A program made the translations under genes and the position numbers. A model generated the notes under the pieces. That model had not been told where the DNA came from. It was given only the letters and a program-made list of their open reading frames with translations, and did no database searches. From assembly GCF_010093815.1 (NCBI RefSeq), contig NW_022985552.1, positions 1,889,827 to 1,953,826 of the forward strand: 64,000 bases of DNA, given 5' to 3'. Position 1 is the stretch's first letter, and each line of letters starts with the position of its first letter. Shown piece after piece: positions 21,738 through 48,936 of the stretch. This DNA is from Pseudovirgaria hyperparasitica (taxonomy: Eukaryota; Ascomycota; Dothideomycetes; Acrospermales; Acrospermaceae).

Positions 21738-21883
21738 TATACCTCCCCGGCCTATAGAACTACTACCCTTAGTAGTATAGTAACCGTATAAGAAACCGTG
21801 TAAAGAACGCCTAAAAGAAAGACCTTAATATAAATAAAATGCGCCCCTAGTAAACCTTTCGGCGCGGGTAAACCTTAGCCCGG

Positions 21884-21916
21884 ATTATTAGTTAAGGGCA
21901 GCCCTTAACTAATAAT
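21884..21916. repeat. Palindrome P1, element A, near 3' LTR
   Basis: Arms ATTATTAGTTAAGGG and CCCTTAACTAATAAT, 15 bp each, perfect, with loop CAG. It lies about 150 bp inside the 3' LTR and corresponds to 48,757-48,789 in element B. Confidence 0.95.
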
Positions 21917-24900
21917 TAGGTAGGTTTTTAGGCGCCTAATCTTAGTACTTAAGATCGCGAGCCAGCTCCTAAAGAATTATATTACTTATCTTAGAGAGGT
22001 TAGATTCCTCCTTATCGGATAGTTCGTTAGGCCTCTCCTATCTATAGAAGTTCTCTTTAATGTTATCTAGGCCCGCGTTAGGCTCGAATTTCTTTAAATT
22101 AATTAGCCGCTTAGCGGCGCGCGCCTTATTAAATTCCTTCTAGAACGACCTATCCCTATAGACTAGCCTTTTCTACCTTACTATTTTCTTAAAGGTCTCC
22201 ACGAATACCCTCGAGCCCTCCTTAAACTAGGCGTCTATCTTAGCTTTAAGTTATTAAGGACTTATATTAAGCCACGTAGCTACCTCTTCTTTTACCTTCT
22301 AGCTATTCTATCTTTTATAGCTAACTAATACGTTACTAACGGCGTTAAAACTCGGGAGTTAAACTACGGCTAGAAAGGTAAAAGGAATCGCGCTATATTT
22401 ATTAGAAAATTCTAACGGAGACGTAGGTCCCGGAGTTAAATTCCTATAAGCTACTGCGAGTTATTCCTATATATCTATTTTAGGTACTTCCATTATTATA
22501 TGATTAGGGCCAATCGCGATATACTATAGAAGTATTATATATCTTCTACCCTTTATAGAACCCTAGGCGCCGTGTATTATTAGTAGGCTAGAGATATATA
22601 CTTTAAGGGACTAGTAGGGGACTAGGACGAAGGGACTAAATCGTTTCCTATCGTCCGTATTATAGATCTTATCGTTAATAGCTATAATTATACTATTTTA
22701 ATTAACCCCCTCGCGGAGCTTAGCCTTCGACTACTATTTATTTAAGAACTTATAGAAGCGGGGAATGATTATAGTATAGTCGTTACTTTATTCGTCGTCG
22801 AGACTAATACTCCCTTAGATTATATTAAACCCGTGTCTATCGCTAGAATCGAGGATTTGATTAATAGTATTATCGAGATACTTAAAACCCGTCTTATCGC
22901 CTCTATCCCAGGACTTCGCATAGTACGGGTACGAGATTAGATAGTAGTTAAGATTAGGCCGAAGAGCGATATAGGTGAGCTAGTAAAGTAGGTATTACCT
23001 AATAAACTATTAGATATAGGAGTGGTATATAGTTCGTAGCTAGCCGTAGTTCGATTTCTTATTAAACATACGCTGGTAGTACTTATATATATTAAATTCA
23101 TCCCTCGCGAGTTCTAGAATACTCTTATTAAGTATAGAGGTCGTCTTTTTAAGTAGCTCGAAGAGCCCTTTAATATTAATACTTCTAGTACGTTCCTACT
23201 CGTCGAAGAGTTATCTATCTATTCTACTATCCTCCTTCTAAATTATAAATGCGATACTAGTAAGGATAGTTTTAATATTAATAACTTACTTCGGGGTCTC
23301 TAGGGCCTAGTAACGATAGATACCTAATGCCTCTATCGGATAAGGTAGCCGCGCGTACTTCGCGAACTAGGTATAGTAGTTCTTATAAACTTTAAGGGCC
23401 CCCACGTTATCTCTAAACTTATATACTATTTTAAGTCTCGCTACTAGGTTTAAGTAGGACATACTAACGAGTATATTATTCTTTCTAGCCACGTCTTAGT
23501 AATACTTATAGTAGACTTTATACGGAATAGCCATGTTACCTATCTACGCTTTCTAGTGTACTAGTAGGGCTATTCTCTTAATACTCGTGAAATTCTTCTT
23601 TAATAATATAGCTACCTTAAAAGTCTTCGTTACTAAAGGCGCGTATTAATACTTCTTAGGCTTATCCTCTTCCTTAACCGATACTATTATCTTAGAGTAC
23701 GAACTAAGAATAACCGGGGATTATCGTATAGGCGCCCCTAGTAATTACTAAGGGCTAGTAGATAAGGCATATCCGCGAGTAGGTTTTATCGGCGTGGCTA
23801 TAATAGATACTAAAGACGTTCTTATATAGTCTAGTAAGGGACGTTTACTAGTAGTAGTAGGAGGAATACTTACTTTAAATAGACGACTAGCTTCGAAGAG
23901 ACGACGTACTACTAAACTAGAAGGCGTGCTTTATAGAGGGGACTTTACCACGGGCGTTACCTACGCTAGTTTTAGTAATAGTAAGGTCTAAGGCGGAGGC
24001 GATGCACTCATCTCTTTAATTTATAGATAGTATTCGACGGGCCTATAAACCATTCTACTTATCTATAATAACTATTAACTAGCGGGGATAATAAGTCCCG
24101 TCTTATTATAGAACGTTAGTTTATTTTATTAGCTAGGGTAGTTCGAGAGTTACTAGAGAGATAGACCGTCCTTATTACTATTACTAGCTAGGGCGGTATC
24201 GATATTAGAGCTCTAAAGATATACCTTAATTCTCCTTCCCTTCTATCCCTAGCCGATTCGGGACCATAGGGATACGTTTAACTAGTTCCTTACTCTCGCC
24301 CATGTCCGCACTTATAAGAGCGCTACTAGCTTTTCTATAAAGTTCTATGTTTACTAGAGCTATCCGAGAGCGGATTAGAGTAACTAGCCATCGTTATTAG
24401 AGAGGTCTTTTTACTAGTTTTATAGGATTATATTTTTAGCTTTTAGGATACGGGAGTTAGTATCTCTTCTATAATAAATTATCTCGTGGACTTCTTTCGG
24501 AATAGAGGAGTTAATCTTTACCTTACTATACTCTATTACGGCTTCTACTTCCTAGAAGAGGTTAACTATACTACTTAAGAGCTATTCTATAAGGCTAGTA
24601 ATATAAAGGAGATTATTAAACGTGTCTAGAATATAGTCCTATCGCTCTTACGGGTTCTAGATAGCGATAATTCGGTTAATAGTAGACTTATTTATTTCTA
24701 TAGCTTCTATAGCCTATCTATACGGAGTAGTAGATGGCCTTAATACTACGATAGCCGTCGATAGCCCTACTTTAGTACTTACGACTCTTAACTAGGACCG
24801 TATCTATCTTATTAGTGCTTAATAATCTTATAACTCTTTATAAGTAGGCGTTTTCTTCTTTAGCGGGGCTATTATTATTATTAGTTCTATTAGTAAGTTA

Positions 24901-25084
24901 CATTCTAAGAAGAGATAGTTTAAGTAAGGCGGAAGTAGAGGAGGAGATTTTATTAATTAAGAAGATATAGAGAGGTATAAGAGGGAAGAGTTATATACTA
25001 TCTTAAGTTCTCTTTTTATGCCTCCTCGAATGCCGGGTATATAGTAATTTTTATAAATGATCCTTACTAACGGCTATAGGCCCG

Positions 25085-25195
25085 TATACGTGTCGAATCT
25101 ATAAATAAATATATACTAGATATATAGGAAATCTATAAATGAATATATCTACCGGGTATATAGCGGAATCTATAAATAAATAGATACCGGGTATA
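25085..25195. repeat. Short tandem array in element A (about three 35-bp units)
   Basis: Repeated units containing AATCTATAAATRAATA and a CCGGGTATAT-like core, between integrase and the extra coding-like region. The inverse array in element B is at 45,481-45,590. Confidence 0.6.
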
Positions 25196-28100
25196 TTCTT
25201 ATCCTTATAAGACTTCCTATAAGTATCTTTTTCTCTTATACCTCCTCCTTCTTTTCTTTCTTATTAGTTTCTAATAGGGCCCGTTCTATAGTAACGAAAT
25301 AGGCCTTTAATAGATAGGCTTCGATTACACGACCGGTTTCAATATATAGTAGGTGGAATTTCGTGTAAACGCCATTATATCTTCTTTCGAGCATTACTTA
25401 CTTTAATAATAGGTTTTATTATTTTATAGTAATAATAGGATTTATTATCCTCTTTCGATAATAGAGTTTATTATTATAAGACTACTTTTATAAGTATCCC
25501 TTCTCTCCTTAAAAAAACTTCTATCCCCTAGAAGGAGATATCGATTCTAGGGAAACGTAAATATTTCTCTCTATTAAAGTCTTACGGAGTAGAAATTACC
25601 ACTTCCACCCGGGTTCGTATGGCGTCGTCGAGGTATTCCGTAAGTTATTTATAATAGTTTTTCTTATCGCTACTCTCCTTATTTTCCTTAGTAATTCTTC
25701 TAATTAGTAGTCGTAAGGGCTCGTCCTAACTCTCGTTACTCGCATTTCTTATAAAATATTTCTTTAACCTATGGCTAGGAAACGTCCCTCTAAGCATGGC
25801 TCTATTAAGCTCCGCGAGCTTATAAGTATAATTAAACATAGACTAAATTCTATATGGCCCCCTCTAATACCACCTTAGCTTCCGCTCTATATTCTTCTAT
25901 CGCTACGAGTTATATAGAAGGATAATTATATTAACTAGTAATAACTCTTAACGAAGGTAATAGTTATTATTCTATGCCTCTCTCGATTCCTCACGCGTTT
26001 ATATTATATAGATATAGGCCTCCTTAAGATCCTCGGATCTTCTCTTAAGTTATCTAGCTCGAAGAGCGAGTAAGTTAGACGTCGATCGTACCTCGTTCTA
26101 AGAGAGTATTTAGAGTAACTTGAATTCGACTTCGATAGGCATAATTAGTTTATAGCTAAGCACGAGGTATACGGTACTATACCCTATACTAGCACGTGTC
26201 GTTATTCTATCTACCTAGATAACCGCATGGAGGTAGTTAGGCTAGTTCTTAAATCCGCCATTAGTTATCTTCGCGAGAGTATTAGCGAGTAGTATAAAAC
26301 TTCTCTTAATAATTCTATTTACTCGGAGATTATATATAGACGTAACCTTCTAATAAATTCTATAGAGTCGGAGGAGCTCCTCTATAGCACCTATATTTTC
26401 TCTACTACCGTTATAGATGATTTTAGGAATAATTCTATATCTATAGATTACGTTCTTAAAGAGGAACTTTACGATAACTATAGACGTAGCCGCCGTATAT
26501 ACCTCCGCCTTAGTCTATCCGCTTAGCTATTCTTATATAGATACTACTTTACTATACTCTATAGAAGGTAGTAGTATTATTATATCTAAGTATATTCTTT
26601 ACTAAAGAATAGGCGTTATAACGTGGTAGAGCCCTTTATTAAGATCTCCGAGGAGCTTACTTCGTTATTAATATTTATTATAGGTTTTTACGTGCTATCG
26701 CACGTCTCTATATATACCTATCTACTAATACTTATTCTTAATCCTTCTAAGGGTCCCTTCGCTACCTCTATAATCTATCTTATTATAAGTAGTAGTAATT
26801 ATATACGCCCTAGTATTCGGATCCTTAATTACTCGTATATATTAGCGATGCCTATCTCCTCTCTACTAGAGTATTTAGTTATATATAAGGAACTTTAGGT
26901 AGTCGGTTATAAAGGCCTTATATACTCGGTCGGTTAGGTCGGTTAGTCTCTTAAGTATAGTAAGATACTTCGTAATCCTCTACTATTTATTACTATATTT
27001 ATCTATTAAGGGAGACTTAATAGCGGTATAGTTAAGTATCCCTATCGTGTAATCTCTCCCGCTAATAGGCTTAATTAACGACGTCTCTAGCACGTCTATA
27101 TATAGAGCCATATCTACGAACTTATCTAGGTTAAAGGTAGAGACGTCTAGTAGTTCTTCTTCTTCGTGTATCTATAAGATACTATTAGCGACTATATTAC
27201 GCTTTCTAGGTACATGCCTAACTATAAAGTTCTATAGCTAAATCCACGCGAGCTACCTAGTAACGAGCGCCCCTAGTAAGTTAGTTATAGTACGGTTAAT
27301 TTAAGCGACTAGAGTATTCGCGTCTATTTCTATAATAAAGTATATACTATAGAGATATTACCGGAACTTCTATAACGCGTAGAGGAGGGCTTAGTACTCT
27401 AGTTTCACGGTATTATAGTTTCTCTTAGCTTTTAACTATATTCCTCTATTATACCGCGATAGCTAATATTTATAATTCTTGTTCTCCTATATTAACGTAG
27501 CCCCCTATCTAATATTACTAGAGTCTACTACTAGGATTATATCTCCCGTATCTATCCCGTACTATAACGTTATTAGTATAGAAGTAGTAGTTAGAGCTAT
27601 CTTTAGCGCGTCTATTAAGGTCTACTCCTTAGCTATCTACTACTAGACCGATTTATTCTTTAATAGTATAAATAGCGGCGATACGATAATAGCGTACCCG
27701 GGGATCTATATCCGGAAATATATATAAACGCTAAGGAAGGCTCGTATATTCGTCGTGTTTTTATAGGGTTTCTAGTCCCTAATAGTAGTAACCTTTTTAT
27801 TACTCGGTCGCCTCCCTTTAATACTATAGACGTATTCTATAACGTTAGCGGCTTTAACATACTACTAAGTCTTCTTACTACTTAGGGCGTATCCAGCGCG
27901 CTCTATATCCGCGAGAACCTTATCTATATTAATTAAATATTCTAGGATATATCTATGAATTCTAGGCAGGGCCTCCTTAGAGTTATATTTCGTCATAGGT
28001 CCTTTAATATCTAAGTTATCTAGGAATAGTAGAGCCCTCTCCGGGATATATTCTTATATAATAGTTAATATAATTCTAACGAACTAAGCTACTAAATTAG

Positions 28101-29163
28101 TAGCCCCTTAAGGTAATATTATCCTATATAGTAATTCTAGAGGTGTTATAAACCCCGTTAAGTCTCGGTAATACTCTACTAATAGAATCTAATTATATCC
28201 TAAGAAGAAGTCGGTAAACGTTAAGACGGCTATCCCCGTAAAGTACTCCGAGAATTCTTTATATAAGGGCGGCGTAGCCGTATTACGAATAGTAACTCGG
28301 TTAATTTCTATCGCCGAATTAATTAACCTATAATCTTATTTCTTATTAGCTTCCTTCTTCTTTTCCATAAGAAAATAGGCGTTTTAATAAGGACTACTAT
28401 AGGGCTCGAGCCTTCTACTATTAAGACGCTCTTTTAGAATCGTAAGTACCTTTCTATAAAGGGCTCTAGAAATATTAAAGTTCTTAGCCTACTATATCTT
28501 ATATTCTACCGTTCGGATCTCCTATAGAGGTACTATCTCTTTATTAAATTTACTAAGATATAAGAATTTCTATACTAGTACTTCCTCGCGATATAATAAG
28601 ATTATATATAGTAACTTAAGTTCTACGGGACGTAGCTCTATTCTAATCTTTAGCTAACTTATATATAGAGGCGTTAGACGTGTTCCTAGCGGGATAGTTA
28701 CCCTTTAAGGCTCTATTAGTCTATTAAATACGTTAAGGCCTAGGTGGATAGCCGGAAGAAGTATCTACTATACGATTACTTATTCACGCTAGTCTAGATA
28801 CCCTAATAGATTTCTAGAGACCTTTTAGTGGGCTTCGGAGTTATCTATAGGGTGTACTTTAACTCCCTTTCTTTTATATATAGTAGCTATACTAAATCCC
28901 TTTAATACCCCGGATAAATACCGTCTTTAGAGGCCGGTGGAGCCTACTATAAGCTATTCTATTATTATACCTTATTTATATACGAAGGTAGCGTACCTTA
29001 CCGCCGTAACTACTAGGGCGGCTAAGTTATCTTTTCTTAATAACCGAGTAATATTTTTAGGCCGGATTTTCTCGGAAAGTAACTCTATATAACTTATTTC
29101 TATATCCGTATAAAAATATATCCTATCCCCTTTATTAGTAGGTTTACTAGACCCTATTTAGTG

Positions 29164-29202
29164 CGGATTATTAGTTAAGGGTAGCCCTTAACTAATAATC
29201 CG
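29164..29202. repeat. Palindrome P2, element A, gag-pol border
   Basis: A perfect 18-bp inverted repeat with left arm CGGATTATTAGTTAAGGG and loop TAG, 39 bp in all. It corresponds to 41,478-41,516 in element B. It sits between the gag-like and pol-like regions. Confidence 0.95.
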
Positions 29203-31885
29203 GCTTAACTCCGGCTTCTAGTAATATACTCCGCTATATAGTTAGTCTCTAGCCACGGAGTTACCCTCCTTCTCTAAGACTAGAATATACTTATCTAGAC
29301 TAGTTTTAAAGGTTACTCGTTCTTATCTATATACGGAGTAGACTATTAAGAGTACTTACCCGGAGACTAACCTCCGCACTATAAGTAAGGTCTACCTAGT
29401 ATATAGCTCCCCTAGGATAAGGTTATAATTAAGTTTACTATATATAAATATTAAAGTAGCTATAATAATCCAATCTATACGGATAGAGTATTACTATACT
29501 ATTCCTACGAATAGAGTACTATACTAAATAGCGCTAACTAAACTCGAGTTCTTTATATATAGTAGAAGTAAAGATATTACTAGCCTAAGACGCCTCGTAG
29601 CATCTAGTTAAATACTATTTACCTACGCGCTACTATCGAATAGTACTATACTAGTTACCCTTTTAGAACTAACTTCTATAGGGTACCTTAGATACTCGGC
29701 TACTAGCCTTACTATCTCTTCCTTAAGCTAATTAATATCTTATTATATAATAGCTATCCCTATAGTATAGAGGGGTACTAATACGTTAAGTTTATTTATC
29801 TTAGAAGCCATAGTATAGTCGTTTCTTCCTTTCTTCTCGGCTCTCCCCTCTTAAGCCTTATAGATCTCTCTAGCTATAAAGTTAGGGGCGCCCTTCTTAA
29901 ATACCGCACGATATAAGTTACTATTAAGGCTTAATAGTTCGCTAATAGTAATATTTATAGTTATCCCTAGAACGCGTACTAGCTATACTTTACTAGCTTC
30001 TATACTTAGCTACTATCCCTCGTATAGATAGTTATTAAGCTTAACGCCTCGGATACGTGCCTTTTAACTAGAATTTAGGCTATCCCCTTTATCTATCTTA
30101 TCCTTAGACGCTATTAGCTCTTATTTAGACATTCTCTAGTCGCTACTCTTCTTACTATCCTCCTATTCCTTAATAATTCTTATATACTACCCTTAACGCA
30201 TTCCGCGGAGACGGGCGATCTTTCTTTCCTTAGTATAATTAGGTATACTCTTTATAATCCCCCTTCTAGATATTATAAGTATAGCGGGCTCTTCTAGGGC
30301 TATCTCCTTATAGATATATCTATTACTAGCTACGTCGAAGCGTTCGTAGAATTCTATATATCTATCTTTCTTACTCTTAGGCGACGTAACTTCTTCTTCT
30401 AAATTACTATCCGCTAAGGCCTAGTAGGGACTCTTCGTAGGTTTTATACTAATACTATATACTAGTACTCTCTATAAAGCGTTAATATTTACTACGGACG
30501 TAGAAACCTTCACTCCCCCTCTATACTAGCTTAGGCCGTTTTAAACCGTTACTACGTAATTCCGGATAGCTTATAGGGTAGCTTATGGCTCTACTAAGAA
30601 GGGTAGTAATAGAATTTCTTCTCTATTCGCCCCGAAACGCCCTCGGAATACTTATACCCTATTAATATTTAGTAATCCGTCTCTAATATATCCTACTATC
30701 TCCGGATATCTATATATTAGGTAATCTCCTCTATACGTGATATATATAACCGGTCTTTAAGGTCTATTCTAGACTATAACGCCTTCTTAGAAGTCTCGGG
30801 TAGAGACGTATTCTCTATTCTATATATAATTCTATAGATAAACTTACGTTAGTTCTATAGGTATGCCTCATACTTAGAGGTATATTAAAAGATTTAGCCT
30901 TCGCGCCTACTAGTTAATAATAGCCGAAAGAAGCTTAGGTTCGTACTTCTTAAGGGATAAGAATAAGAGATTAGAGGTAAAGTAGGACTTTATCTTAATT
31001 AACGTGAGGTCTAGTTTACTAAATCTCTCTACTATCTTATTAAACTTATCCGATTCTAGCGCGACGTATACTTTAACTAGAGAGGGGTAGCTAAATTCAT
31101 TAGTTCTTCTTTCTTCATGTAACTACTCTTCTAAGCTAGTCTTCTTACTCCCTATCTTTAATTTATAGTATATAGCTATAGCTAGCTCTTATACGGCTAA
31201 GTACTTATTAATACGAGCTAGTTCCTTAAGTACTCTAGCCTTTCGTAATACGAAGCCATAGATAATTACCTAGTTATAACTATATACTTCTATCGTGAGT
31301 TAATATTTCTCTATAGCCCGAGCCTTAAGACTATTAGATAGCCCTTCTAGGAAGAGCTCTATTCACGAATACGAGCTTAGGCTTCCTTTAGCCGTAAGTT
31401 TCTCTATAATAATACGATACTAGAAGTAGTATATAGAGAGAGAGTAGGATAGGTCTACTTTAACCATTTCCACGTATTTTTAGATAAAGTAGATAGTGCC
31501 TTCCTCGAGGGCGGAGTTAAATAGAGAGAATTCCTTTAATAATTCTTCACGTAGCGTAGCCTACTACTATTTCTAAAACCTATCTATTCCTTTAATAGTA
31601 GAACGGAGATAGTTCTCGTAGTATAACGGTAGGGAGGTTATCTTCTTATTAGGCGGAACTTCGTAGTTTATATATATATCCTTATACTTCCGAAGGAAGA
31701 CTATAATATTTATTCCTTTAAAGCGCTTAGGGGCTAGGGTAGATAGAGGTACTATCCTTCCTTATCGCGTAAATACTATAAAGAAGTTAAGTATCTCTCC
31801 ACGAGTTACTAGGTCGTTATTTTAAGCTCCTATCGCACTATTACTAGTAGTAGATATACTAGTAGAGACACTAGGGGTAAGGTTA

Positions 31886-31910
31886 TTAGTTAAGGGATTA
31901 CCTTAACTAA
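31886..31910. repeat. Palindrome P3, element A, leader-gag border
   Basis: Arms TTAGTTAAGG and CCTTAACTAA, 10 bp each, with a 5-base loop. It corresponds to 38,770-38,794 in element B, about 500 bp inside the 5' LTR. Confidence 0.85.
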
Positions 31911-32414
31911 AGGTTAGCCTAATACGTCTACCTATAACATCTATTATCCCTTCTCTATGTTAATTAATCCCTTTATAAGATAAACTATTACTATCGTCTT
32001 TATTAATATAAGGTTCATGGTATTCTACTTATATTATTATCTTTATATAAGGCGTTTCTAAAGTAGTATACTCGTGTAGCCGTGTTTATAAATAACAGCT
32101 ATAGTAGTACTAAATAGGTTATATTTATCGTTTTTAAACTCTTCTTTACCGCTTTATCTAGCTCTATTTTATATTCTATTCCCCTAAGATATTTTTGAGT
32201 CGCGCTATCACCCGTGTTAGTATACGCATGCTTTTTACGGCTACTTTTAAGAGGCTAGCCCCTAGCGACTCCGGACTCTCTATTTTCCGGACTTATAGCT
32301 TCGATCTAGTAAGTCTAGACTACCTTATTAGGCACGCTATATACTTCCCCTAAGCTAGTTTCGGAGTCCTAATCTCCCTCTATAAGTTCGTAGTCCGGGT
32401 ACGACCTCTAAAAT

Positions 32415-32785
32415 TATAATAAGCTATCGCTACGTATATCCCTTTTATAAATAGCTATGTTCTTAGTATAGTAGTCGCGACGAACTTACAAGTATCTCTC
32501 CTAGGTATTATGAGTTCTCTTTAAACGTACGACTTCTTATTAGTTCTCTTTTACGATAGGACGGGTCTATATAATACTCTTAATTAATTTATCAATAGCT
32601 AAGTCTAATAATTAATACCTATAGAGACCTATAAACGTAAGGAAAGGTCGAATCGTCGAATATTAGTGATGGGGGAAGCGCGCCGAGTAGAATGACCAAG
32701 GAAAACGCCCTCCTTAAATATATAATAAGCCATGTAATCGAGCTAGGGACACATACATATAGGGCTGTAGGAACGGCCTTCCATA
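32415..32785 (-). repeat. Element A 5' LTR
   Basis: A 371-bp direct repeat of 21,367-21,737, ending at the second CTAT duplication. Confidence 0.9.
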
Positions 32786-33675
32786 CTATATAATAACCGT
32801 AGGGCTATATATTTCTTCTAGTAAGGTAGTAGTATTTTATAGTTATATTCTAGTAGTTATATAGTAGAGGTAGATTCCTTATATTATGGCGTCGTAGGTT
32901 ATTAGGTCGTACTATAGTAGTATATTATAGTTATATTCTAGCGGTTATATAGTAGAGATAGATTCCTTATATTATAGTATTATAGATTATATAATTATAA
33001 GGTAGTAGAATCTCGTAGTTATATTATAGCGGTCACGTAGTAGAGGTAGACTCCTTATATTATAGTATACCGCGTCGGGTTATATAAAGGTATAGTAGTC
33101 TATATATAAACCGCGCGTTCTATTTTATTATTATCTATTTTAGAACTAGCTCTTCTCTAGACTAGGGGTTATATAGTAGTAGTAGAGTAGCTTATATATA
33201 ATCTATATTTATTATTATTATTATTTATTTTAGGACTAGCTCTACTCTAGTCTACACGATTTTCTCTAACGTAAGTATATAGATTCTACGCCTAGCGACT
33301 TTCTTCTTCCTTAACTACCCTTACGCCTACTATCTTAATACTATATAGTAGCTACTATAATATTAGTAAACTTATATACTACCTCGTAGCTTCTATACTA
33401 TTATTATAAGTACTCTAGGTCTAAATAGTTCTATTATAGAAGCTAGCGCCGTCTCGGTAGTAGCTATAGATACTAGGGGTTAAGACTCTAATAATCGTCG
33501 CGTACCTAGGCGCTAGAAACTAGCCGACCGTACCGTAAGTAGGTTCTATCTCTATACCGTTCCCTATACTAACTAGATAGACTATTCCTCCTACTATACT
33601 CTAATAGACTAAGTCTATTTACTATATAGAGCTATATATTATAGAGGGTAACTCGTTAGAAGACGAGTATACTAA
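32786..33675 (+). mobile_element. Element F, second piece (rest of LTR/leader and start of a coding-like region)
   Basis: Resumes after element A. The part to about 33,260 holds tandem repeats and would complete an LTR of roughly 780 bp if F starts at 21,061. From about 33,300 a plus-strand coding-like pattern begins and continues after C2 at 54,058. Fossil; I recognise no protein family, though gag of an LTR element is a fair guess from position. Confidence 0.45.
32841..33104. repeat. Three tandem 88-bp units
   Basis: Units begin at 32,841, 32,929 and 33,017, each opening with AGTTATATT and containing TATAGTAGAGRTAGAYTCCTTATATTAT-like sequence. Units differ by RIP-type changes. A further pair of related blocks (TTTTAGRACTAGCTCT) lies near 33,140 and 33,225. 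Confidence 0.85.
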
Positions 33676-33915
33676 TATAAGGATTATAGACGTAGGATAG
33701 TAGTCTAATAGGTTATAGGAGGATTCGGGAATATATTTAAAAGGGTAGTCTACTCTCTTAACGAGGTTAATTTCTAAAGAGTAGGAATTAAGTATATACG
33801 GCCTACTTATATAGTAGTCTCGCTTATTCTAGCTAGCTTACCCTAGGTCCACCTATCACGGACTATACTAGACCATAGTATTCTAGTTAAGTCTATTCTA
33901 GTGTTAGCCCTAATA
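33676..33915 (-). repeat. C2 3' LTR
   Basis: These 240 bp match 53,818-54,057 and both C1 LTRs. The left border is set by the ACTAA duplication. Confidence 0.9.
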
Positions 33916-33935
33916 ATATCCTTCTTCTTTTTATA

Positions 33936-36300: not shown

Positions 36301-36657
36301 ACGGCCCCGACGGCGCTAGGTTTACGGTAGTAACGTATTATTCTATAACCTCTATTTATATATAGCTATCGCGGTACTTAAGATATATACCGTAGATTCC
36401 TAGGTATCCTTATCCTCGGTGTAGTTCTTCCAACGGATTTAATACTTTTAGATACCGTTCTTGTTAAGCCTATATTCGATAATATAGTCTACTTCGTATA
36501 CGTCTAGTCTATCTTAGGGTATAATAGAGTATAATTATATGTTCGTGCGTTTATATACGTTAGGTTAAAACCTTTTAAGTAATAAGACGTGGAATACGTT
36601 ATAGACTTTTATATTATTTCCTAGGTTAAGCTCGTAGACTCTTATACTAATACGACG

Positions 36658-37594
36658 GCCAGGTGGCGTAGTGGTAGTGTGCTACGTTACTAGAAGCGTT
36701 TGTTATCCAACGTCGTAGGTTCGAATCCTATAACGGCTACCTTTTCACACACTAGTTTTCGCACGCTCTGTTAAAAGTATACGGGGCTAAGCGAGCACGT
36801 GACGTGAAGGTTGCCGTCACATGACTACTTAGTCCTGAGCGACCATTAGGTAATGTGAAAAATAACTATACCGTCATCACATGATGAGAATTACCTAATA
36901 TAGCCACCTACCAAGCTACCTTAAGTAGCAGAGCGACGCCTAGAGCGGCTAGACCCACAACTAGCTTAGCTCGAATCATAGAATTTTCACCACATACCGG
37001 GGCCTTGTCCACCCCAATCCGGCTTAGCTCGCGCTTACTCCGGCTCGGCAACCACGAAACAGACAGCAATACCCAATCAAGTATCCCGCCTACCCATAGA
37101 CGATTACATAGCCCCGAAGAACAATTTCCGAATTCGGCCTAGCTAGGGTTAGTGCTAAGGCATGGACCTATTAGATATACACCCCCTCCGGCATTAGTCA
37201 TCTTAATTAATGACTACTGCCCGGCGCAAAGCTATATTCCCATGGATAGGAAAAACACGGTAACATAGGAATAAAAGACTAGGCCTAGCCTAGCGACCTG
37301 CCCAATCACAAGAAAGGTAATACCTACTATAGTTGGTTAGGGCGTTATTAAGAGCCGGTACCAATATAGTAATAAAAGCCTAATATAAGGATAAGAAAGT
37401 AAGTTTGTCACCCAATGGGATTCAAGGACTTAGACTAGGCTAGGTTAGATTAGTAATAGGGTCTAGTTAGGGAGCTAATTATAGGAGGTTTTCTTGTATA
37501 CATAGCAGCCAATACTAGAGGAGGCCTAAGCCTGTGGAGCATATATATGGCTATATATATAGTTCTTCCTAGTTAAACACTAATATTATTATTA
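36658..37594 (+). mobile_element. tRNA-headed SINE-like element, copy 2 (lightly mutated)
   Basis: 937 bp with a tRNA-like 5' head (A box TGGCGTAGTGG at 36,664-36,674; B box GGTTCGAATCC at 36,718-36,728; TTTT at 36,742-36,745), a long unique body and an ATT-repeat 3' tail. It is flanked by a 16-bp target duplication TTATACTAATACRACG at 36,642-36,657 and 37,595-37,610, differing at one base. C1 gives the empty site at about 15,418-15,435. CA and TG are common here, unlike in the surrounding C2, so the element escaped most RIP or arrived late. No open frame over 60 residues is present, as expected for a SINE. Confidence 0.85.
36664..36728 (+). promoter_or_regulatory. Internal Pol III promoter (A and B boxes) of SINE copy 2
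   Basis: A box TGGCGTAGTGG and B box GGTTCGAATCC both match eukaryotic tRNA consensus, with 43 bp between them. Only about three pairs of an acceptor stem form, so it is a promoter relic and not a tRNA gene. The long A-B spacing would fit a parent tRNA with a long variable arm such as Ser or Leu, which is inference. Confidence 0.8.
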
Positions 37595-37894
37595 TTATAC
37601 TAATACAACGTTTAATTCGGAAGAGACTAGCCATTTTATAATCGAGCTTTTTATTTACTTACGACGTTTATATATTATAGATATTAAGGAGGACTTCGTC
37701 TCCCTTCTCATACGCTTAATCTTTAACTAATCTATTATAGTACTTTATATACGACTTATTTACTTACTAGATTATTACGCGATAGTTACGTACGGTTTTA
37801 AAGATTTTAATTGCTAGTTCCTACGCGTGGACGTTAATATCTATCGTTCGGTCGAACTAGACCGTATAAGGTTTAAAACCTATCCTTAGACTAC

Positions 37895-38265
37895 TATGGA
37901 AGGCCGCTCCTACAGCCCCACATATATATGTCCCTAGCTCGATTACATGGCTTATTATATATTTAAGAAGGGCGTTTTCCTTGGTCATTCTACTCGACAC
38001 GCTTCCCCCATTACTAATATTCAATGATTCGACCTTTCCTTATATTCATGGGCCTCTATAGGTATTAATTATTAGGCTTAGCTATTAATAAATTAATTAA
38101 GAGTATTATATAGACCCATCCTATTATAAAAGAGAACTAATAAGAAGTCGTGCGTTTAAAGAGAACTTATAATACCTAGGAGAGATACTTATGAGTTCGT
38201 CGCGACTACTATACTAAGAATATAACTATTTATAAAAGGGATATACGTAGCAATAGCTTATTATA
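37895..38265 (+). repeat. Element B 5' LTR
   Basis: These 371 bp match 48,937-49,307 directly and both A LTRs inversely. It keeps more CA/TG than the A LTRs. Confidence 0.9.
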
Positions 38266-38769
38266 ATTTTAGAGGTTATACCCGGACTATAAACTTATAG
38301 GGGGAGATTAGGACTCCGAAACTAGCTTAGGGGAAGTATATAGCGTGCCTAATAAGGTAGTCTAGACTTACTAGATCGAAGCTATAAGTCTAGAAAACAG
38401 GGAGTCCGGAGTCGCTAGGGGCTAGCCTCTTAAAAGTAGCTATAAAAAGTATACGCATGCTAATACGGGTAATAGCGCGACTCGAAAATGTCTTAGGGGA
38501 ATAGAATATAAAATAGAGCTAGATAAAGTAGTAAAGAAGAGTTCAAAAACGATAAATATAACCTATTTAGTACTACTATAGCTATTATTTATAAATACGG
38601 CTATACGAGTATACTACTTTAGGAACGCCTTACACGAAGATAATAATATAAGTAGAATACTATAAACCTTATATCGATGAAGATAATAGTAATAGTTCAC
38701 CTTATAAAGGGATTAATTAACATGGAGAAGGGATGATAGGTGTTATAGGTAGACGCATTAGGCTAACCT

Positions 38770-38794
38770 TTAGTTAAGGTAATCCCTTAACTAA
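38770..38794. repeat. Palindrome P3, element B
   Basis: Arms TTAGTTAAGG and CCTTAACTAA with a 5-base loop, in the leader-gag border. Same place as 31,886-31,910 in A. Confidence 0.85.
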
Positions 38795-41477
38795 TAACCT
38801 TACCCCTAGCGTCTCTACTAGTATATCTACTACTAGTAATAGTATAATAGGAGCTTAAAATAATAACCTAGTAACTCGTAGAGAGATACTTAACTTCTTC
38901 GTAGCATTTACGCGATAAGGAAGAATAGTATCTCTATCTACTCTAGCCCCTAAGCACTTTAAAGAAATAAACATTACGGCCTTCCTTCGGAAGTACGAGG
39001 ACATATATATAAACTATAAAGTTCCGCCTAATAAGAAGATAACCTCTCTACCGTTATACTACGAGGACTATCTCCGTTCTACTATTAAAGGAATAGATAG
39101 GTTTTAGAAATAGTAGTAGGCTATACTACGTGAAGAATTATTAAAGGAATTCTCTCTATTTAACTCCGCCCTTAAGGAAGGTACCATCCACTTTATCTAA
39201 AAATATATAGAAATGGTTAAAGTAGACCTATCCTACTCTCTCTCTATATACTACTCCTAGTATCGTATTATTACGGAGAAACTTACGGCTAAAGGAAGCC
39301 TAAGCTCGTATTTATAAATAGAGCTCTTCCTAGAAGGGCTATCTAATAGTCTTAAGGCTCGGGCTATAGAGAAATATTAACTTATAATAGAAGTATATAG
39401 TTATAACTAGGTAATTATCTATGGCTTCGTATCACGAAAGGCTAGAGCACTTAAGGAACTAGCTTATATTAATAAGTACTTAGCCGTATAAGAGCTAGCT
39501 ATAGCCATATACTATAAATTAAAGATAGGGAGTAAGAAGACTAGCTTAGAAGAGTAGTTATATAAAGAAAGAAGAACTAATAAATTTAGCTACCCCTCTC
39601 TAGTCGAAGTATATATCACGCTAGAATCGGATAAGTTTAACGAGATGGTAGAGAGATTTAGTAAACTAGACCTCACGTTAATTAAGATAAAGTCCTACTT
39701 TACCTCTAATCTCTTATTCCTATCTCTTAAGAAGTACGAACCTAAGCTACTTTCGGCTATTATTAACTAGTAGGCGCGAAGGCTAAATCTTTTAATACAC
39801 CTCTAAGTATAAGGCATGTCTATAGAACTAATATAAGTTTATCTATAGAATTATATATAGAATAGAGAATATATCTCTACCCGAGACTTCTAAGAAGGCG
39901 TTATAGTCTAGGATAGGCCTCGAAGACTAATTATATGCATTACGTACGGAGGAGATTACCTAATATATAGATGTCTAGAGATAGTAGGATACATTAGAGA
40001 CGGATTACTAAATATTAATAGGGTATAAGTATTCTAAGGGCGTTTTAGGGCGAACGGAGAAGAAATTCTATTACTACCCTTCTTAGTAGGGCTATAAGCT
40101 ACTCTATAAGCTATCCGGAACTATATAGTAACGGTTTAAAACGGCCTAAGCTAGTACGGAGGGGGAGTAAAGGTTTCTACGTCTATAGTAAATATTAACG
40201 CTTTATAGGGAGTACTAGTATATAGTATTAGTATAAAATCTATAAAGGGTCCCTACTAGGCCTTAGCGGATAGTGATTCGGAAGAAGAAGTTATATCGCC
40301 CGAGAGTAAGAAAGATAGATATATAGAATTCTATAAACGCTTCGACATAGCTAGTAATAGATATATCTATAAGGAAATAGCTCTAGAAGAGCCCGCTATA
40401 CTTATAATATCTAGAAGGGGGATTACGAAGAGTATACCTAATTATACTAAGGAAAGAAAGATTACCTATCTCCGCGGAATGCGTAAAGGGTAGTATATAA
40501 GAATTATTAAGGAATAGGAGGACGGTAAGAAGAGTAGCGACTAGAGAATATCTAAATAAGAGCTAACGGCGTCTAAGAATAAGATAGATAAAGGGGATAG
40601 CCTAAATTCTAGTTAAAAGGCACGTATCTAAGGCGTTAAGCTTAATAACTATCTACGCGAGGGATAGTAGCTAAGTATAGAAGCTAGTAAAGCATGGCTA
40701 GTGCGCGTTCTAGGGATAACTATAAATATTACTATTAGCGAACTATTAAGCCTTAATAGTAACTTACGTCATGCGGTATTCGAGAAGGGCGCCCCTAACT
40801 TTATAGCTAGAGAGGTCTACGAGACTTAAGAGGAGAGAGCTAAGAAGAAAGAAAGAAACGACTATACTATAGCTCCTAAGATAAATAAACTTAACGTATT
40901 AGTACCCCTCTATACTATAGGGATAGCTATTATATAATAAGATATTAATTAGCTTAAGGGAGGGATAGTAAGGCTAGTAGCTAAGTGTCTAAGGTACCCT
41001 ATGGAAGTTAGTTCTAAAAGGGTAACTAGTATAGTACTATTTAATAGTAGTACGTAGGTAAATAGTATTCGACTAGATACTATAAGGCGTCTTAGGCTAG
41101 TAATATCTTCGCTTCTACTATATATAAAGAACTCGAGTTTAGTTAGTACTACTTAGTATAGTACTCTATTCGTAGGAATAGTATAGTAATATCTAATCTA
41201 TATAGGTCGGATCGTTATAGCCACTTCGATATTTATATATAGCGAACTTAATTATAACCTTATCCTAGGGGAGCTATATACTAGGTAGGCCTTACTTACG
41301 GTATAGAGGTTAGCCTCTAGGTAAGTACTCTTAATAGTCTACTCTATATATAGATAAGAATATATAACCTTTAAAACTAGTCCGGACGAGTATATTCTAG
41401 TCTTAGAGAAGGAGGGTAACTCTATAGCTAGAGACTAACTATATAGCGGAGTATATCGCCAGAAGCCGGAGTTAAGC

Positions 41478-41516
41478 CGGATTATTAGTTAAGGGCTACC
41501 CTTAACTAATAATCCG
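41478..41516. repeat. Palindrome P2, element B
   Basis: A perfect 18-bp inverted repeat with loop CTA at the gag-pol border. Same arms as 29,164-29,202 in A. Confidence 0.95.
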
Positions 41517-44500
41517 TACTAAATAGGGTCCGGTAAACCTACTAATAAAGGGGATAGGATATATTTTTATATAGATATAGAAATAAGTTATATAGAGTTA
41601 CTTTCCGAGAAAATCCGGCCTAAAAATATTACTTAGTTATTAAGAAAAGATAACTTAGCCGCTCTAGTTACGGCGGTAAGGTATACTACCTTCGTATATA
41701 AATAAGGTACGATAATAGAATAGCTTATAGTAGGCTCTACCGGCCTCTAAAGACGGTATTTATCCGGGGTATTAAAGGGATTTAGTATAGCTACTATATA
41801 TAAAAGAAAGGGAGTTAAAGTATACCCTATAGATAACTCCGAAGCCTACCGAAAGGTCTCTAGGAATCTATTAGGGTATCTAGACTAGCGTGAATAAGTA
41901 ATCGTATAGTAGGTACTTCTTCCGGCCATCTACCTAGGCCTTAACGCGTTTAATAGGCTAATAGAGCCTTAAAGGGTAACTATCCTACTAGGAACACGTC
42001 TAACGCCTCTATATATAAGTTAGCTAAAGATTAGAATAGAGCTACGTCCCACGGAACTTAAGTTACTATATATAATCTTATTATATCGCGAGGAAGTACT
42101 AGTATAGGAATTCTTATACCTTAGTAAATTTAATAAAGAGGTGGTACCTCCGTAGAAGATCCGAACGGTAGAATATAAGGTATAGTAGACTAAGAACTTT
42201 AATATTCCTAGAGCCCTTTATAGGAAGGTACTTATAATTCTAAAAGAGCGTCTTAATAGCGGAAGGCTCGAGCCCTATAGTAGTCCTTATTAAAACGCCT
42301 ATTTTCTCGTAGAAAAGAAGAAGGAAGCTAATAAGGAACGAGATTATAGGTTAATTAATTCGGCGATAGAAATTAACCGAGTTACCATTCGTAATGCGGC
42401 TACGCTACCCTCGTATAAAGAATTCTTAGAGTACTTTACGGGGATAGCCGTCTTAATATTTACCGACTTCTTCTTAGAATATAATTAGATTCTATTAGTA
42501 GAGTATTACCGAGACTTAACGGGGTTTATAACGCCCCTAGAATTACTACGTAGGATAATATTACCTTAAGGGGCCACTAATTTAGTAGCTTAGTTCGTTA
42601 GAATTATATTAACTATTATATAAGAACATATCCCGGAGAGGGCTCTACTATTTCTAGATAACTTAGATATTAAAGGACCTACGACGAAATATAACTCTAA
42701 GGAGGCCCTACCTAGAATTCGTAGATATATTCTAGAATATTTAATTAACGTAGATAAGGTTCTCGCGGATATAGAGCGCGCCGGATACGCCCTAAGTAGT
42801 AAGAAGACTTAGTAGTATATTAAAGCCGCTAACGTTATAGGATACGTCTACGGTATTAAAGGGAGGCGACCGAGTAATAAAAAGGTTACTACTATTAGGG
42901 ACTAGAAACCCTATAAAAACACGACGAATATATAAGCCTTCCTTAGCGTTTATATATATTTCCGGATATAGATCCCCGGGTACGCTATTATTATATTATC
43001 ACTATTTATACTATTAAAGAATAAATCGGTCTAGTAGTAGATAGCTAAGGAGTAGACCTCGATAGACGCGCTAAAGATAGCTCTAACTACTACTCCCGTA
43101 CTAATAACGTTATAGTATAGGATAGATATAGAAGATATAATTCTAGTAGTAGACTCTAGTAACGTTAGGTGGGGGCTACGTTAATATAGGAGAACGAGAA
43201 TCGTAAATATTAGCTATCGCGGTATAATAGAGGAATATAGTTAAAAGCTAAGAGAAACTACGATACCGTGAAACTAGAGTACCGAGCCCTCCTCCACGCG
43301 TTATAGAAGTTCCAGTAATATCTCTATAGCACGTACTTTATTATAGAAATAGATATAAATACTCTAGTCGCTTAAATTAACTATACCGTAACTAACTTAC
43401 TAGGGGCGCTCGTTACTAGGTGGCTCGTATAGATTTAGCTATAGAACTTTATAGTTAGGCACGTACCTAGGAAGCGTAATATAGTCGCTAATAGTATCTT
43501 ACGGATACACGAAGGAGAAGAACTACTAGATATCTCTAGCTTTAACCTAGACGAGTTCGTGGATATGGCTCTATATATAGACGTGCTAGAGACGTTATTA
43601 ATTAAGTCTATTAGCGGGAGAGATTACACGATAGAGACACTCGACTATACCGCTATTAAGTCTCCCTTAATAGATGAATATAGCGATAAATAATAGAGGA
43701 TTACGAAGTATCTTACTATACTTAAGAGGCTAACTAACCTAACCGACCGAGCGTATAAGGCCTTTATAACCGACTACCTAAAGTTCCTTATACGTAACCG
43801 AATACTCTAGTAGAGAGAAGATAGGTATCACTAATATATACGAGTAATTAAGAATCCGAATACTAGGGCGCGTATAATTACTACCACTTATAACGAGATA
43901 GATTATAGAGGTAGCGAAGGGACCCTCGGAAGGATTAAGAATAAGTATTAGTAGATAGATATACGTAGAGACGTGCGATAGTATATGAAAACCTATAACG
44001 AATATTAATAATGAAGTAAGCTCCTCGGAGGTCTTAATAAAGGGCTCTACTACATTATAATACCTATTCTTTAGTAAAGAATATACTTAGACGTAACGAT
44101 ACTACTATCTTCTATAGAGTATAGTAAAGTAGTATCTATACGAGAATAGCTAAGCGGATAGACTAAGGCGGAGGCATATACGGTAGCTATATCCATAGTT
44201 ATCGTAAAGTTCCTCTTTAAGAACGTAATCTATAGATATAGAATCATTCCTAAAATCATCTATAACGGTAGTAGAGAAAATATAGGTGCCATAGAGGAGC
44301 TCCTCTAACTCTATAGAATTTATTAGAAGGTTACGTCTACGTATAATCCCCGAGTAAATAGAATTATTAAGAGAAGTTTTATACTACTTACTAATGCTCT
44401 CGCGAAGATAACTAATAGTAGATTTAAGAACTAGCCTAACTACCTCTATACGGTCGTCTAGGTAGATAGAATAACGATACGTGCTAGTATAGGGTATAGT

Positions 44501-45480
44501 ACTATATATCTCGTACTCGGCTATAAACCAATTATACCTATTAAAGTCGAATTCGAGTCGCTCCGAATACTCCCTTAGGATAAGGTATAATCGACGTCTA
44601 ACTTACTCGCTCTTTAAGCTAGATAACTTAAGAGAAGATCCGAGGATCTTAAGGAGGCCTATATCTACGCGATACGAACGCGTAAGGAATTAAAAGAGGC
44701 ATGGAATAACGACTATTACCTTCGTTAAGAGTCGTTACTAGTCGATATAATTATCCTTCTATATAACTTATAGTAATAGAAGAATATAGGGCGGAAGCTA
44801 AGGTAGTATTAGAGGGGGCTATATAGAATCCAATCCGTGTTTAATTATACTTATAAGCTCGTAGAGCTTAATAGAGCTATACTTAGAGGGACGTTTCCTA
44901 GCCATAGGTTAAAGAAATATTTCATAAGAAATGTAAGTAACGAGAGTTATAACGAGCCCTTATAACTACTAATTAGAAGAATTACTAAGGAAAATAAGGA
45001 GAGTAGCGATAAGGAAAACTATTATAAATAACTCATGGAATACCTCGACGACGCCATACGAACCCGGGTAGAAGTAGTAATTTCTACTCCGTAAGGCTTT
45101 AATAGAGAGGAATATTTACGTTTCCCTAGAATCGACATCTCCTTCTAGGGGATAGAAGTTTTTTTAAGGAGGGAAGGGATACTTATAAAAGTAGTCTTAT
45201 AATAATAAACTCTATTATCGAAAGAGGATAATAAACCCTATTATTACTATAAAATAATAAAACCTATTATTAAAGTAAGTAATGCTCGAAAGAAGACATA
45301 ATGGCGTTTACGCGAAATTCCACCTACCATACATTAAAACTAGTTATATAATTAAAGCCTACCTATCGAAGGCCTATTTCGTTACTATAGAACGGGCCCT
45401 ATTAGAAACTAATAAGGAAGAAAAGAAGGAGGAGGTATAAGAGAAAAAGATACTTATAGAAAGTCTTATAAGGATAAGAA

Positions 45481-45590
45481 TATACCTAGTATCTATTCAT
45501 TTATAGATTCCGCTATATACCCGGTAGATATATTTATTTATAGATTTCCTATATACCTAGTATATATTTATTCATAGATTTAATACGTAT
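45481..45590. repeat. Short tandem array in element B
   Basis: About three units of 33-36 bp, each with TATATACC and a TTTATAGATT-like block, between integrase and the extra region. Counterpart of 25,085-25,195 in A. Confidence 0.65.
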
Positions 45591-45699
45591 ACGGGCCTAC
45601 GGCCGTTAGTAAGAATTATTTATAAAAATTACTATATACCTAGCATTCGAGGAGGCATAAAAAGAGAACTTAAGATAGTATATAACTCTTCCCTCTTAC

Positions 45700-48600
45700 A
45701 CCTCTCTATACCTCCTTAATTAATAAAACCTTCTCCTCTACTTCCGCCTCGCTTAAACTATCTCTCCTTAGAATATAACTTACTAATAGAACTAATAATA
45801 ATAATAGCCCCGCTAAAGAAGAAAACGCCTACCTATAAAGAGTTATAAGATCGTTAAGCACTAATAAGATAGACGCGGTTCTAGTTAAGAGTCGTAAGTA
45901 CTAAAGTAGGGCTATTAACGGCTATCGTGGTATTAAGGCCATCTACTACTCCGTATAGATAGGCTATAGAAGCTACGGAAATAAATAAGTCTACTATTAA
46001 CCGAATTATCGCTATCTAGGACCCGTAAGAGCGATAGAACTATATTCTAGATATATTTAATAATCTTCTTCACATTACCAGCCTCGTAGAATAGCTCTTA
46101 AGTAGTATAGTTAACCTCTTCTAGAAAGTAGGAGCCGTAATAGGGTATAGTAAGGTAAAGATTAACTCCTCTATTCCGAAAGAAGTCCATGAGATAATTT
46201 ATTATAGAAGAGATACTAACTCCCGCATCCTAAAAGCTAAAAATATAATCCTATAAAACTAGCGAAAAGACCTCCCTAATAATAATAGCTAGTTACTCTA
46301 ATCCGCCCTCGGATAGCTCTAGTAAACATAGAACTTTATAGAAAAGCTAGTAGCGCTCTTACGAGTGCGAATATAGGCGAGAGTAAGGAACTAGTTAAAC
46401 GTATCTCTATAGTTCTAAATCGGCTAGGGATAGAAGAGAAGGGGAATTAAGGTATATCTTTAGAGCTCTAATATTAATACTACCCTAGCTAGCAATAGTA
46501 ATAAGGACGGCCTATCTCTCTAGTAACTCTCGAACTACCCTAGCTAATAAAATGAACTAACGTTCTATAATAAGACGGGACTTATTATCCCCGCTAGTTA
46601 ATAGTCACGGATAAGTAGAATGGTTCATAGGCCCGTTAAATACTACCTATAAATTAAAGAGATAAGTATATCGCCTCTGTCTTAGACCTTACCGTCGCTA
46701 AAACTAGCGTAGGTAACGCCCGTAGTAAAGTCCCCTCTATAAAGCACGCCTTCTAGTTTAGTAGTACGTCGTCTCTTTAAAGCTAGTCGTCTATTCGAAG
46801 TAAGTATTTCTCCTACTACTACTAGTAAACGTCCCTTACCGGGCCATGCGAGAACGTCTTTAGTACCCGTTATAGCTACGCCGATAAAACCTACTCGCGG
46901 ACATGCCTTATCTACTAGCCCTTAGTAATTACTAGAGGCGTCTATATAATAATCCCCGGTTATTCTTAGTTCGCACCCTAAGATAATAGCATTAGTCGAG
47001 AAAGAGGACGAGCCTAAGAAGTATTAATGCGCGCCTTTAGTGACGAAGACTTTTAAGATAGCTATATTATTAAAGAAGAATTTCACGAGTATTAAGGGAA
47101 TGGCCCTACTAGTACGCTAGAAAGCGTAGATAGGTAACATAGCTATTCCGTATAAAGTCTACTATAAGTATTACTAAGACGTGGCTAGAAAGAATAATAT
47201 ACTCGTTAGCGTGTTCTACTTAAACCTAGTAGCGAGACTTAAAATAGTATATAAGTTTAGAGATAACGTAGGGGCCCTTAAAGTTTATAAGGACTACTAT
47301 ACCTGGTTCGCGAAGTACGCGCGGCCACCTTATCCGATAGAGGTATTAGATATCTATTATTACTAGGCCCTAGAGACCCTAAAGCAAGTTATTAATATTA
47401 AAACCATCCTTACTAGTATTATATTTATAATTTAGAAGGAGAACGGTAGAATAGGTAGATAACTCTTCGACGAGTAGGAACGTACTAGAAGTATTAATAT
47501 TAAAGGGCTCTTCGAGCCACTTAAAAAGACGACCTCTATACTTAATAAAAGTATTCTAGAACTCGCGAGGGATAAATTTAATATATATAAGTACTACCAG
47601 CGTATGTTTAATAAGAAATCGAACTACGGCTGGCTATAAACTATATACCACTCCTATATCTAATAGTTTATTAGGTAATATCTACTTTACTAGCTTACCT
47701 ATATCGCTCTTCGGCCTAATCTTAACTACTATCTAATCTCGTACCCGTACTATATGAAGTCCTAGAATAGGGGCGATAAGACGGGTTTTAAGTATCTTAA
47801 TAACGCTATTAATCGAATTCTCGATTCTAGTAATAGACACGAGTTTAATATAATCTAGGGGAGCATTAGTCTCGACGACGAACGAAGTAACGACTATACT
47901 ATAATCATTCCCCGCTCCTATAAGTTCTTAAATAAATAGTAGTTAAAGGCTAAGCTCCGCGAGGGGGTCAATCGAAACGGTATAATCACGGCTATTAATA
48001 ATAAGATCTATAATATAGATGATAGGAAACGATTTAGTCCCTTTGTCCCGGTCCCCTACCAGTCCCTTAAAGTACGTATCTCTAGTCTACTAATAATATA
48101 CGGCGCCTAGGGTCCCGTAAAGGGTGGAAGACGTATAATACTTCTATAGTATATCGCGATTAGCCCTAATTACATAATAATAGAAGTGCCTAAAATAGGT
48201 ATATAGGAATAACTTATAGTAGCTCATAGGAATTTAACTCCGGGACCCACGTCTCCGTTAGGATTTTCTAATAAATATAGCGCGATTCCTTTTACCTTCC
48301 TAGCCGTAGTTTAACTCCCGAGTTTTAACGCCGTTAGTAACGTATTAGTCGGCCGTAAAAGATAGAACAGCTAGAAGGTAAAAGAAGAGGTAGCTGCGTG
48401 GCTTAACGTAAGTCCTTAATAACTTAAAGCCAAGGTAGACGCCTAGTTTAAGGAGGGCTCGAGGGTATTCGTGGAGACCTTTAAGAAAATAGTAAGGTAG
48501 AAAAGGCTAGTCTATAGGGATAGGTCGTTCTAGAAGGAATTTAATAAGGCGCACGCCGCTAAGCGGCTAATTAATTTTAAGAAATTCGAGTCCAACGCGG

Positions 48601-48740
48601 GCCTAGATAACGTCAAAGAGAACTTCTACAGATAGAAGAGGCCTAATAAACTATCCAACAAGGAGGAATCTAACCTCTCTAAGATAAGTAACACAATTCT
48701 TTAGGAGCTGGCTCACGACCTCAAGTACTAAGATTAGGCG
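45700..48740 (+). mobile_element. Extra coding-like region of element B downstream of integrase
   Basis: About 3 kb with plus-strand coding bias, same direction as pol. A surviving 61-residue open frame lies at 47,181-47,366. No motif of gag, protease, reverse transcriptase, integrase or envelope is recognisable, and there is no obvious run of hydrophobic segments. The mirrored region in A is about 24,970-21,930. It makes this family about 3 kb longer than a standard gypsy element. Fossil, not functional. Confidence 0.5.
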
Positions 48741-48756
48741 CCTAAAAACCTACCTA

Positions 48757-48789
48757 ATTATTAGTTAAGGGCTACCCTTAACTAATAAT
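48757..48789. repeat. Palindrome P1, element B
   Basis: Perfect 15-bp arms (ATTATTAGTTAAGGG and complement) with loop CTA, about 150 bp before the 3' LTR. Counterpart of 21,884-21,916. Confidence 0.95.
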
Positions 48790-48936
48790 CCGGGCTAAGG
48801 TTTACCCGCGCCGAGAGGTTTACTAGGGGCGTATTTTATTTATATTAAGGTCTTTCTTTTAGGCGTTCTTCACACGGTTTCTTACACGGTTACTATACTA
48901 CTAAGGGTAGTAGTTCTATAGGGCCGGGGAGGTATA

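Follow-up and report, generated by a model that had tools for sequence, protein, structure and literature searches.

The 64-kb stretch of DNA analysed here (the window) contains two copies, A and B, of an 11.4-kb retroelement, which are inverted to each other and ~92% alike, as well as a fragment of a LINE-like element (Table 1). Both copies of the first element have LTRs of ~371 bp and 4-bp target duplications, as in an LTR retrotransposon; the duplications were read from the alignment as CTAT for copy A and CTAC for copy B. Stop-free pieces of the LTR element gave no relevant Pfam hit above the cut-off, and the gag, protease and RT labels that we use for its parts are putative, given by motif resemblance. 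The LINE-like element is 5.28 kb long, lacks LTRs and has an (ATT)n tail; its RT match had an E value of only 0.041, below the Pfam cut-off. Since no piece of either host element yielded a Pfam hit above the cut-off, the names LTR and LINE rest on anatomy.

Table 1. Retroelements and palindromes in the window; positions are those of the window unless a locus is named.
Feature	Position	Strand	Remarks
LTR element, copy A	21367..32785	-	LTRs ~21367-21737 and 32415-32785; CTAT at 21363-21366 and 32786-32789
Site a, copy A	21884..21916	no strand	33 bp, loop CAG on + strand
Site b, copy A	29164..29202	no strand	39 bp, 18-bp arms
Site c (diverged), copy A	31885..31911	no strand	2 core mismatches
LTR element, copy B	37895..49307	+	LTRs ~37895-38265 and 48937-49307; CTAC at 37891-37894 and 49308-49311
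Site c (diverged), copy B	38769..38795	no strand	2 core mismatches
Site b, copy B	41478..41516	no strand	39 bp, 18-bp arms
Site a, copy B	48757..48789	no strand	33 bp, 3' LTR ~147 bp further on
LINE-like fragment	62154..63320	-	72% identity to L005 1649-2802; family bears sites d and e elsewhere
Site d, decayed palindrome in LINE-like fragment	63167..63193	-	2 mismatches
Second palindrome	7070-7093, 7146-7169, 9668-9691, 9744-9767; L006:760, 836; L017:3989, 4065		

A palindrome recurs at three sites (a, b and c) of the LTR element, and a search of the window found it where it had been predicted, near the 3' LTR, at the gag-pol border and, in a shorter form, at a third place; the perfect 18-bp arms that had been claimed are those of the 39-bp site b in both copies. 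These palindromes are confirmed as real and far beyond chance. Arm matches with at most one mismatch numbered 13 in the window, compared to 1.25 expected, and none of 100 shuffles reached 13. Similarly, 39 of the 59 perfect-arm hairpins in 247 kb (arms ≥11, loop ≤8) were the palindrome under study, and three first-order Markov controls held 1, 4 and 2 hairpins by the same criterion.

Across the 35.03-Mb assembly, the perfect 27-mer occurs 428 times on each strand, compared to 0 for the reversed control, and the base that follows it is A in all 428, as found by a genome-wide search of the flanks. Allowing up to 5 mismatches, we counted 44 palindromes over the window and the loci L005-L025 (d 15, e 14, a 6, b 5, c 4), none of them outside these five sites, in a sample that is non-random because most of these loci were picked from the first 50 of the 428 listed 27-mers and so for containing a palindrome; flank searches covered the whole genome, where the patterns identified 138 sites e and 136 sites d. 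Sites a, b and c belong to the LTR element and sites d and e to the unrelated LINE-like family. When two LTR copies were compared with six LINE copies, the only 18-mers common to the two elements were those of the palindrome. Confinement to the LTR family at its three sites, which the original prediction had named as an argument against mobility, is not what we found: the same word occurs at two LINE-like sites and once in unique DNA (L030), which gives at least six distinct contexts. Site a of L020 adjoins a stretch of N at one flank, and the palindromes at L018:5477 and at window position 63167 class as site d under wider flank rules. The latter, a decayed site d, sits beyond 21884..48789, the range that the original prediction had covered.

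We also examined shorter matches. A search for seven-base arms with loops of 0-12 gave 12 places (reversed control, 2), of which five (C2, C6 twice, C10 and C12) could not be extended and were rejected as chance-like; the remaining seven were C7 and C26 (LINE site e), C36 and C45 (LINE-like 3' ends), C8 (site c), C47 (L028) and C19 (L030). Likewise rejected was a short match to a loose site e pattern among the fetched loci, which proved to be an unrelated stretch of L009.

Within the LTR element, site a lies at the end of the last frame, and in RIP'd copies a coding-looking frame closes there (..NLPNY*), in the same manner as described below for site e. Site b lies between the protease-like and RT-like stretches, where RIP'd copies show, in one frame, a TAA in the arm and then TAA ATG; the arm TAA may be original or RIP-made, and 4 of the 6 comparable TCAA places in a lightly mutated copy are changed. 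The shorter palindrome, site c, had been assigned to the leader-gag border. Its coordinates and shorter form stand, but its placement at a border does not, since in L029, a lightly mutated copy, site c lies inside an open gag-region frame (810-1073), reading ..PTFSQGNPLTNNL...

In the LINE-like family, the two sites lie close to the ends of the element, 236 nt from the 5' end (site d) and 243 nt from the 3' end (site e) in L005. Site d is a few bases upstream of AACCATGG, likely the ORF1 start, which would place it where the 5'UTR meets that frame. The TAG in the left arm of site e is the ORF2 stop codon of un-RIP'd LINE copies, such that the L027 frame (292-999) finishes with ..RENSDY* and the L026 frame (800-1000) with ..RENPDY*; a protein search with the L027 frame gave nothing at the thresholds used. 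L026 is a 5'-truncated copy with TATAATCTTGTT on both sides, as judged by eye. A LINE-like 3' end in DNA of normal GC content (L041 1231-1249 with L042 1166-1184) loses its 5'-side similarity inside the palindrome, as if the hairpin had halted reverse transcription.

The original prediction explained the perfection of the arms amid RIP-scrambled DNA by their lack of CA and TG, which RIP could not touch. This describes their present state, but the arms of un-RIP'd relatives contain a CA and a TG, one of each, and these copies rule out RIP-proof arms as the reason for perfection. The un-RIP'd palindrome reads ATTAGTCAAGGG-CAG-CCCTTGACTAAT, with one CpA per arm in the hot RIP context TCAA. A search for arms carrying C instead of T gave 27 matches at 22 distinct places: 8 of the main type that are still un-RIP'd in one arm (a 1, d 2, e 5), 3 of the main type un-RIP'd in both (C7, C26 and C47), 10 forms of site c and L030. 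In RIP'd copies, TCAA was changed at 39 of 39 places with the arms counted and at 12 of 12 without the palindromes. If site b is like the others, the arm CpA of the main type was changed in 864 of 878 cases (428 x 2 + 8; 439 sites, decayed forms excluded). The loop, in the context GCAG, was changed in 55 of 100 sites e and 84 of 100 sites d among the matches listed (of 138 and 136). Thus, at sites a, d and e, for which un-RIP'd forms were seen, RIP altered both arms and produced a new perfect palindrome; pairing is restored because RIP acts on one C per arm and the two lie on opposite strands. Site b was RIP'd in both arms in all 15 copies seen (5 + 9 + L052). A perfect palindrome in RIP'd DNA is therefore not necessarily RIP-proof, as its arms may be rewritten in step.

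We asked how the palindrome varies over ten contexts, and found that the core (columns 12-22 with 26-36) is constant apart from the RIP pair 17/31 and one base in site c. Pair 22/26 is broken in site c, and the one core pair in which both partners change is 17/31, the RIP site. The outer arms vary between sites, and two-sided changes there fall in poorly paired columns. The covariation score of the whole helix exceeded that of all 500 shuffles, with contributions from the RIP pair and mostly unpaired outer columns. Except for the RIP pair, we found no compensatory changes in the core stem over the ten contexts, and a search of Rfam with the window and six loci gave no match. If the hairpin were retained just for its shape, paired changes would be expected in the core, and the lack of these beyond the RIP pair weakens a purely structural RNA role. 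Of the structural RNA signal that had been proposed, the idea of a signal is favoured, in that the palindrome persists in all family members seen as well as in LINE lineages that have diverged, and that of a purely structural one is weakened.

The conservation of site e is not special to the palindrome. Two un-RIP'd copies, L026 and L027, share 30 of the 31 bases of the palindrome (the difference is in the loop), compared to 347 of 519 columns of the whole alignment, in which gaps and part of the flank are counted, but 44 of 489 windows reach 30/31 identity, which places site e in a generally conserved stretch. In pairs of RIP'd copies from distant subfamilies (L005/L016, L005/L008, L016/L018 and L007/L016), between 23 and 38 of ~5270 windows were as good as site e, the requirement being no transversion and at most one transition; the single transversion of site d across the same four pairs was in the loop. 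Where the mosaic copy L018 was one partner (L005/L018 and L024/L018), 277 and 370 of 5287 windows equalled site e, which is nothing special there, and within one subfamily (L005/L024) 2292 of 5253 did so. The loop exists in two orientations. Among the matches listed, site e had a CAG-type loop in 98 of 100 and a CTG-type loop in 2 of 100 (100 of 138 sites), and L027 is of the CTG type; site d was of the CTG type in 51 of 53 copies of one subfamily and of the CAG type in 47 of 47 of the other (100 of 136 sites). Such flips of the loop between fixed arms are described as one footprint of template switching in excerpts of PMC8794818.

The original prediction had also raised the possibility of a tiny mobile palindrome, to be checked by empty sites. 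Gap patterns for empty sites d, a and e found 0 genome-wide; in their long-gap form, these patterns recover 9 of 15 filled sites d, 5 of 6 filled sites a and 13 of 14 filled sites e in the window and L005-L025, so that RIP'd empty sites could be missed. Nor did the fetched loci hold an empty site: every flank pair aligned across the junction encloses a palindrome, and an apparent exception, the row aligning e1 with L027, reflects no more than a shifted gap, since the palindrome is present in L027. Rather than dispersal in many unrelated places, we observed one solo relative, L030. A right flank of AABR, which random flanks would often give, follows 1 of the 428 perfect copies, itself a LINE site e (L025). 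With no empty sites and no scatter, self-mobility today is not supported, but in view of the LINE-like sites and L030 the palindrome may have been mobile in the past.

L030 is the sole relative in unique DNA (GC 0.53, without similarity to the loci then fetched). Its palindrome has 22-bp arms with 2 mismatches and the loop ATT. It lies within an open frame of 161 codons (803-1288), a 131-codon part of which found no relative in a protein search at the threshold used. In L028, the palindrome and ~23 nt of LINE left flank are joined at the right end to another element; beyond the palindrome, the L028 frame runs antisense to another element, and a protein search with the L028 frame found nothing at the threshold used. 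The palindrome lies in frame within an open stretch at site c (L029), L028 and L030, and at site e it ends the frame; the un-RIP'd word itself has one open frame, with a near-identical peptide on both strands, IISQG(L/Q)PLTNN. By eye, 6-base direct repeats flank site c (AACCTT) and the L042 copy (GATCCC). The RIP'd arm TATTAGTTAAGGG without its second arm occurs at 71 places, 50 of which are site c by the next four bases, and on this ground we think it improbable that the palindrome forms the ends of a larger, MITE-like DNA transposon. Two other solo arms were L040, a decayed site e, and L039, which has no second arm within 801 bases.

We consider the best reading to be a putative cis signal that is read by its sequence and that unrelated retroelements acquired and multiplied as they multiplied themselves, with a probability of about 0.42. 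The palindrome, whose core is fixed (before RIP, arms TTATTAGTCAAGGG and a 3-nt loop), is a 31-base word in at least two unrelated retroelement families of the fungus. Its stations are, in the LINE-like family, the border of the 5'UTR with the likely ORF1 start (d) and the ORF2 stop that site e holds, and, in the LTR element, the end of the last frame (a), the interval between the protease-like and RT-like parts (b) and, in diverged form, the gag-region frame (c). Its sites and copy number show that the palindrome is copied by its host elements, and the missing scatter and empty sites suggest that it does not move by itself today. Unrelated elements would then have taken up the same signal, and most likely a protein would bind the twofold-symmetric word, in DNA or RNA, reading it by sequence. 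At a, d and e, its perfection after RIP results from two symmetric hits, with the CpA of each arm on opposite strands, and the loop flips between matched arms would fit template switching in the hairpin. An exact word in elements that otherwise have no sequence in common points to shared control of, or exchange between, retroelement classes. In a bolder form that we doubt, the LINE-like and LTR classes carry the same palindromic signal at frame edges, exchanged or host-derived, one host contact with protein or RNA controls both, and RIP erases the signal through both arms. Against a cis signal are the unexceptional conservation of site e and the one solo copy outside retroelements; copies in coding frames are also odd for a DNA signal.

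We rate three other explanations below the cis signal, in the order given here. The palindrome could be the fossil of a miniature mobile palindrome, an insert of 27-41 bp that once entered several places but multiplied only where a successful retroelement could tolerate it (at UTR borders, at ORF ends or as an in-frame linker), a possible but somewhat unlikely history that we suggest by analogy with the palindromic elements of Rickettsia (RPE). The six or more contexts, including the unique DNA of L030, are consistent with such an origin, as are the frame open on both strands, the in-frame positions at c, L028 and L030, and the stops inside the palindrome at e and a, as expected of an insert that brings its own stop. 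Even so, no empty site was found, five of six contexts lie in two element families without scatter beyond them, the open stretches of L028 and L030 have no protein relative, and the L028 frame is partly antisense to another element; the direct repeats at c and L042, which would suit an insertion, are short and were not seen at other sites. Less probable, in our opinion, is a neutral passenger whose arms are repaired and whose loop is flipped by template switching in the hairpin, and which came to be shared between families by a rare strand jump during reverse transcription. The loop flips with fixed arms at d and e, as in the process that the excerpts of PMC8794818 describe, and the L028 junction, where the palindrome with its short LINE flank meets another element, speak for it. 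However, template switching equalises the arms within a hairpin, not with the arms of another family, and over ten contexts the core arms differ in nothing but the RIP pair and a single base of site c.

A special form of the cis-signal reading is that the palindrome is a candidate DNA site for an AP-1-like (bZIP) regulator, such that retroelements would have borrowed a host stress-response site; we think this improbable. Each un-RIP'd arm contains the exact heptamer TTAGTCA / TGACTAA. The promoter of a LINE would be internal, in the 5'UTR, and the position of site d there is consistent with one. In excerpts of PMC6545440, the targets of Yap1 include TGACTAA and TTAGTCA. Yet this is a single motif match made after the fact, covering 7 of the 14 arm bases, and none of the sites a, b, c and e coincides with a known promoter.

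We compared the palindrome with known systems. Like RPEs, it is a palindromic word in several unrelated host sequences, in some of them in an open frame; RPEs, however, are ~150 bp and largely within host genes (excerpts of PMC10969869 and PMC6649704), whereas the palindrome here is 27-41 bp, lies nearly always in retroelements and gave no empty site in our searches. The fungal GalEa Copia elements similarly have a conserved palindromic or hairpin word, of 9 bp, directly after the 5' LTR and discussed as a primer site (PMC5445492, in part), but ours lies at ORF borders and is common to a LINE-like family. Stem-loops in the 3'UTR of LINEs, which are bound by the element's own protein, resemble site e in being in the 3' region; those described lie in the 3' tail (PMC4176376 and PMC5135761, in part), whereas the stem of site e includes the stop codon, ~240 nt short of the end, and is matched by a second copy upstream of ORF1. 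The mobile hairpin elements (double-hairpin elements, RHE) are likewise tiny dispersed palindromes, but are mitochondrial (PMC2800124, in part), unlike the nuclear, retroelement-borne palindrome described here. The word is not named in the accessible, mostly non-subscription literature listed on fungal palindromes, palindromic elements, template switching, retroelement hairpins and mobile hairpins, and one or other of two 11-mers of the palindrome occurs in the text of 10 papers, none of them on the subject as judged by title.

The window also contains a second palindrome, TACTTAGAATA-nn-TATTCTAAGTA, which, with 0 to 3 mismatches, forms pairs spaced 76 bp apart at four places in the window, L006 and L017. 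Since these four places have common flanks, it is part of one other repeat family.
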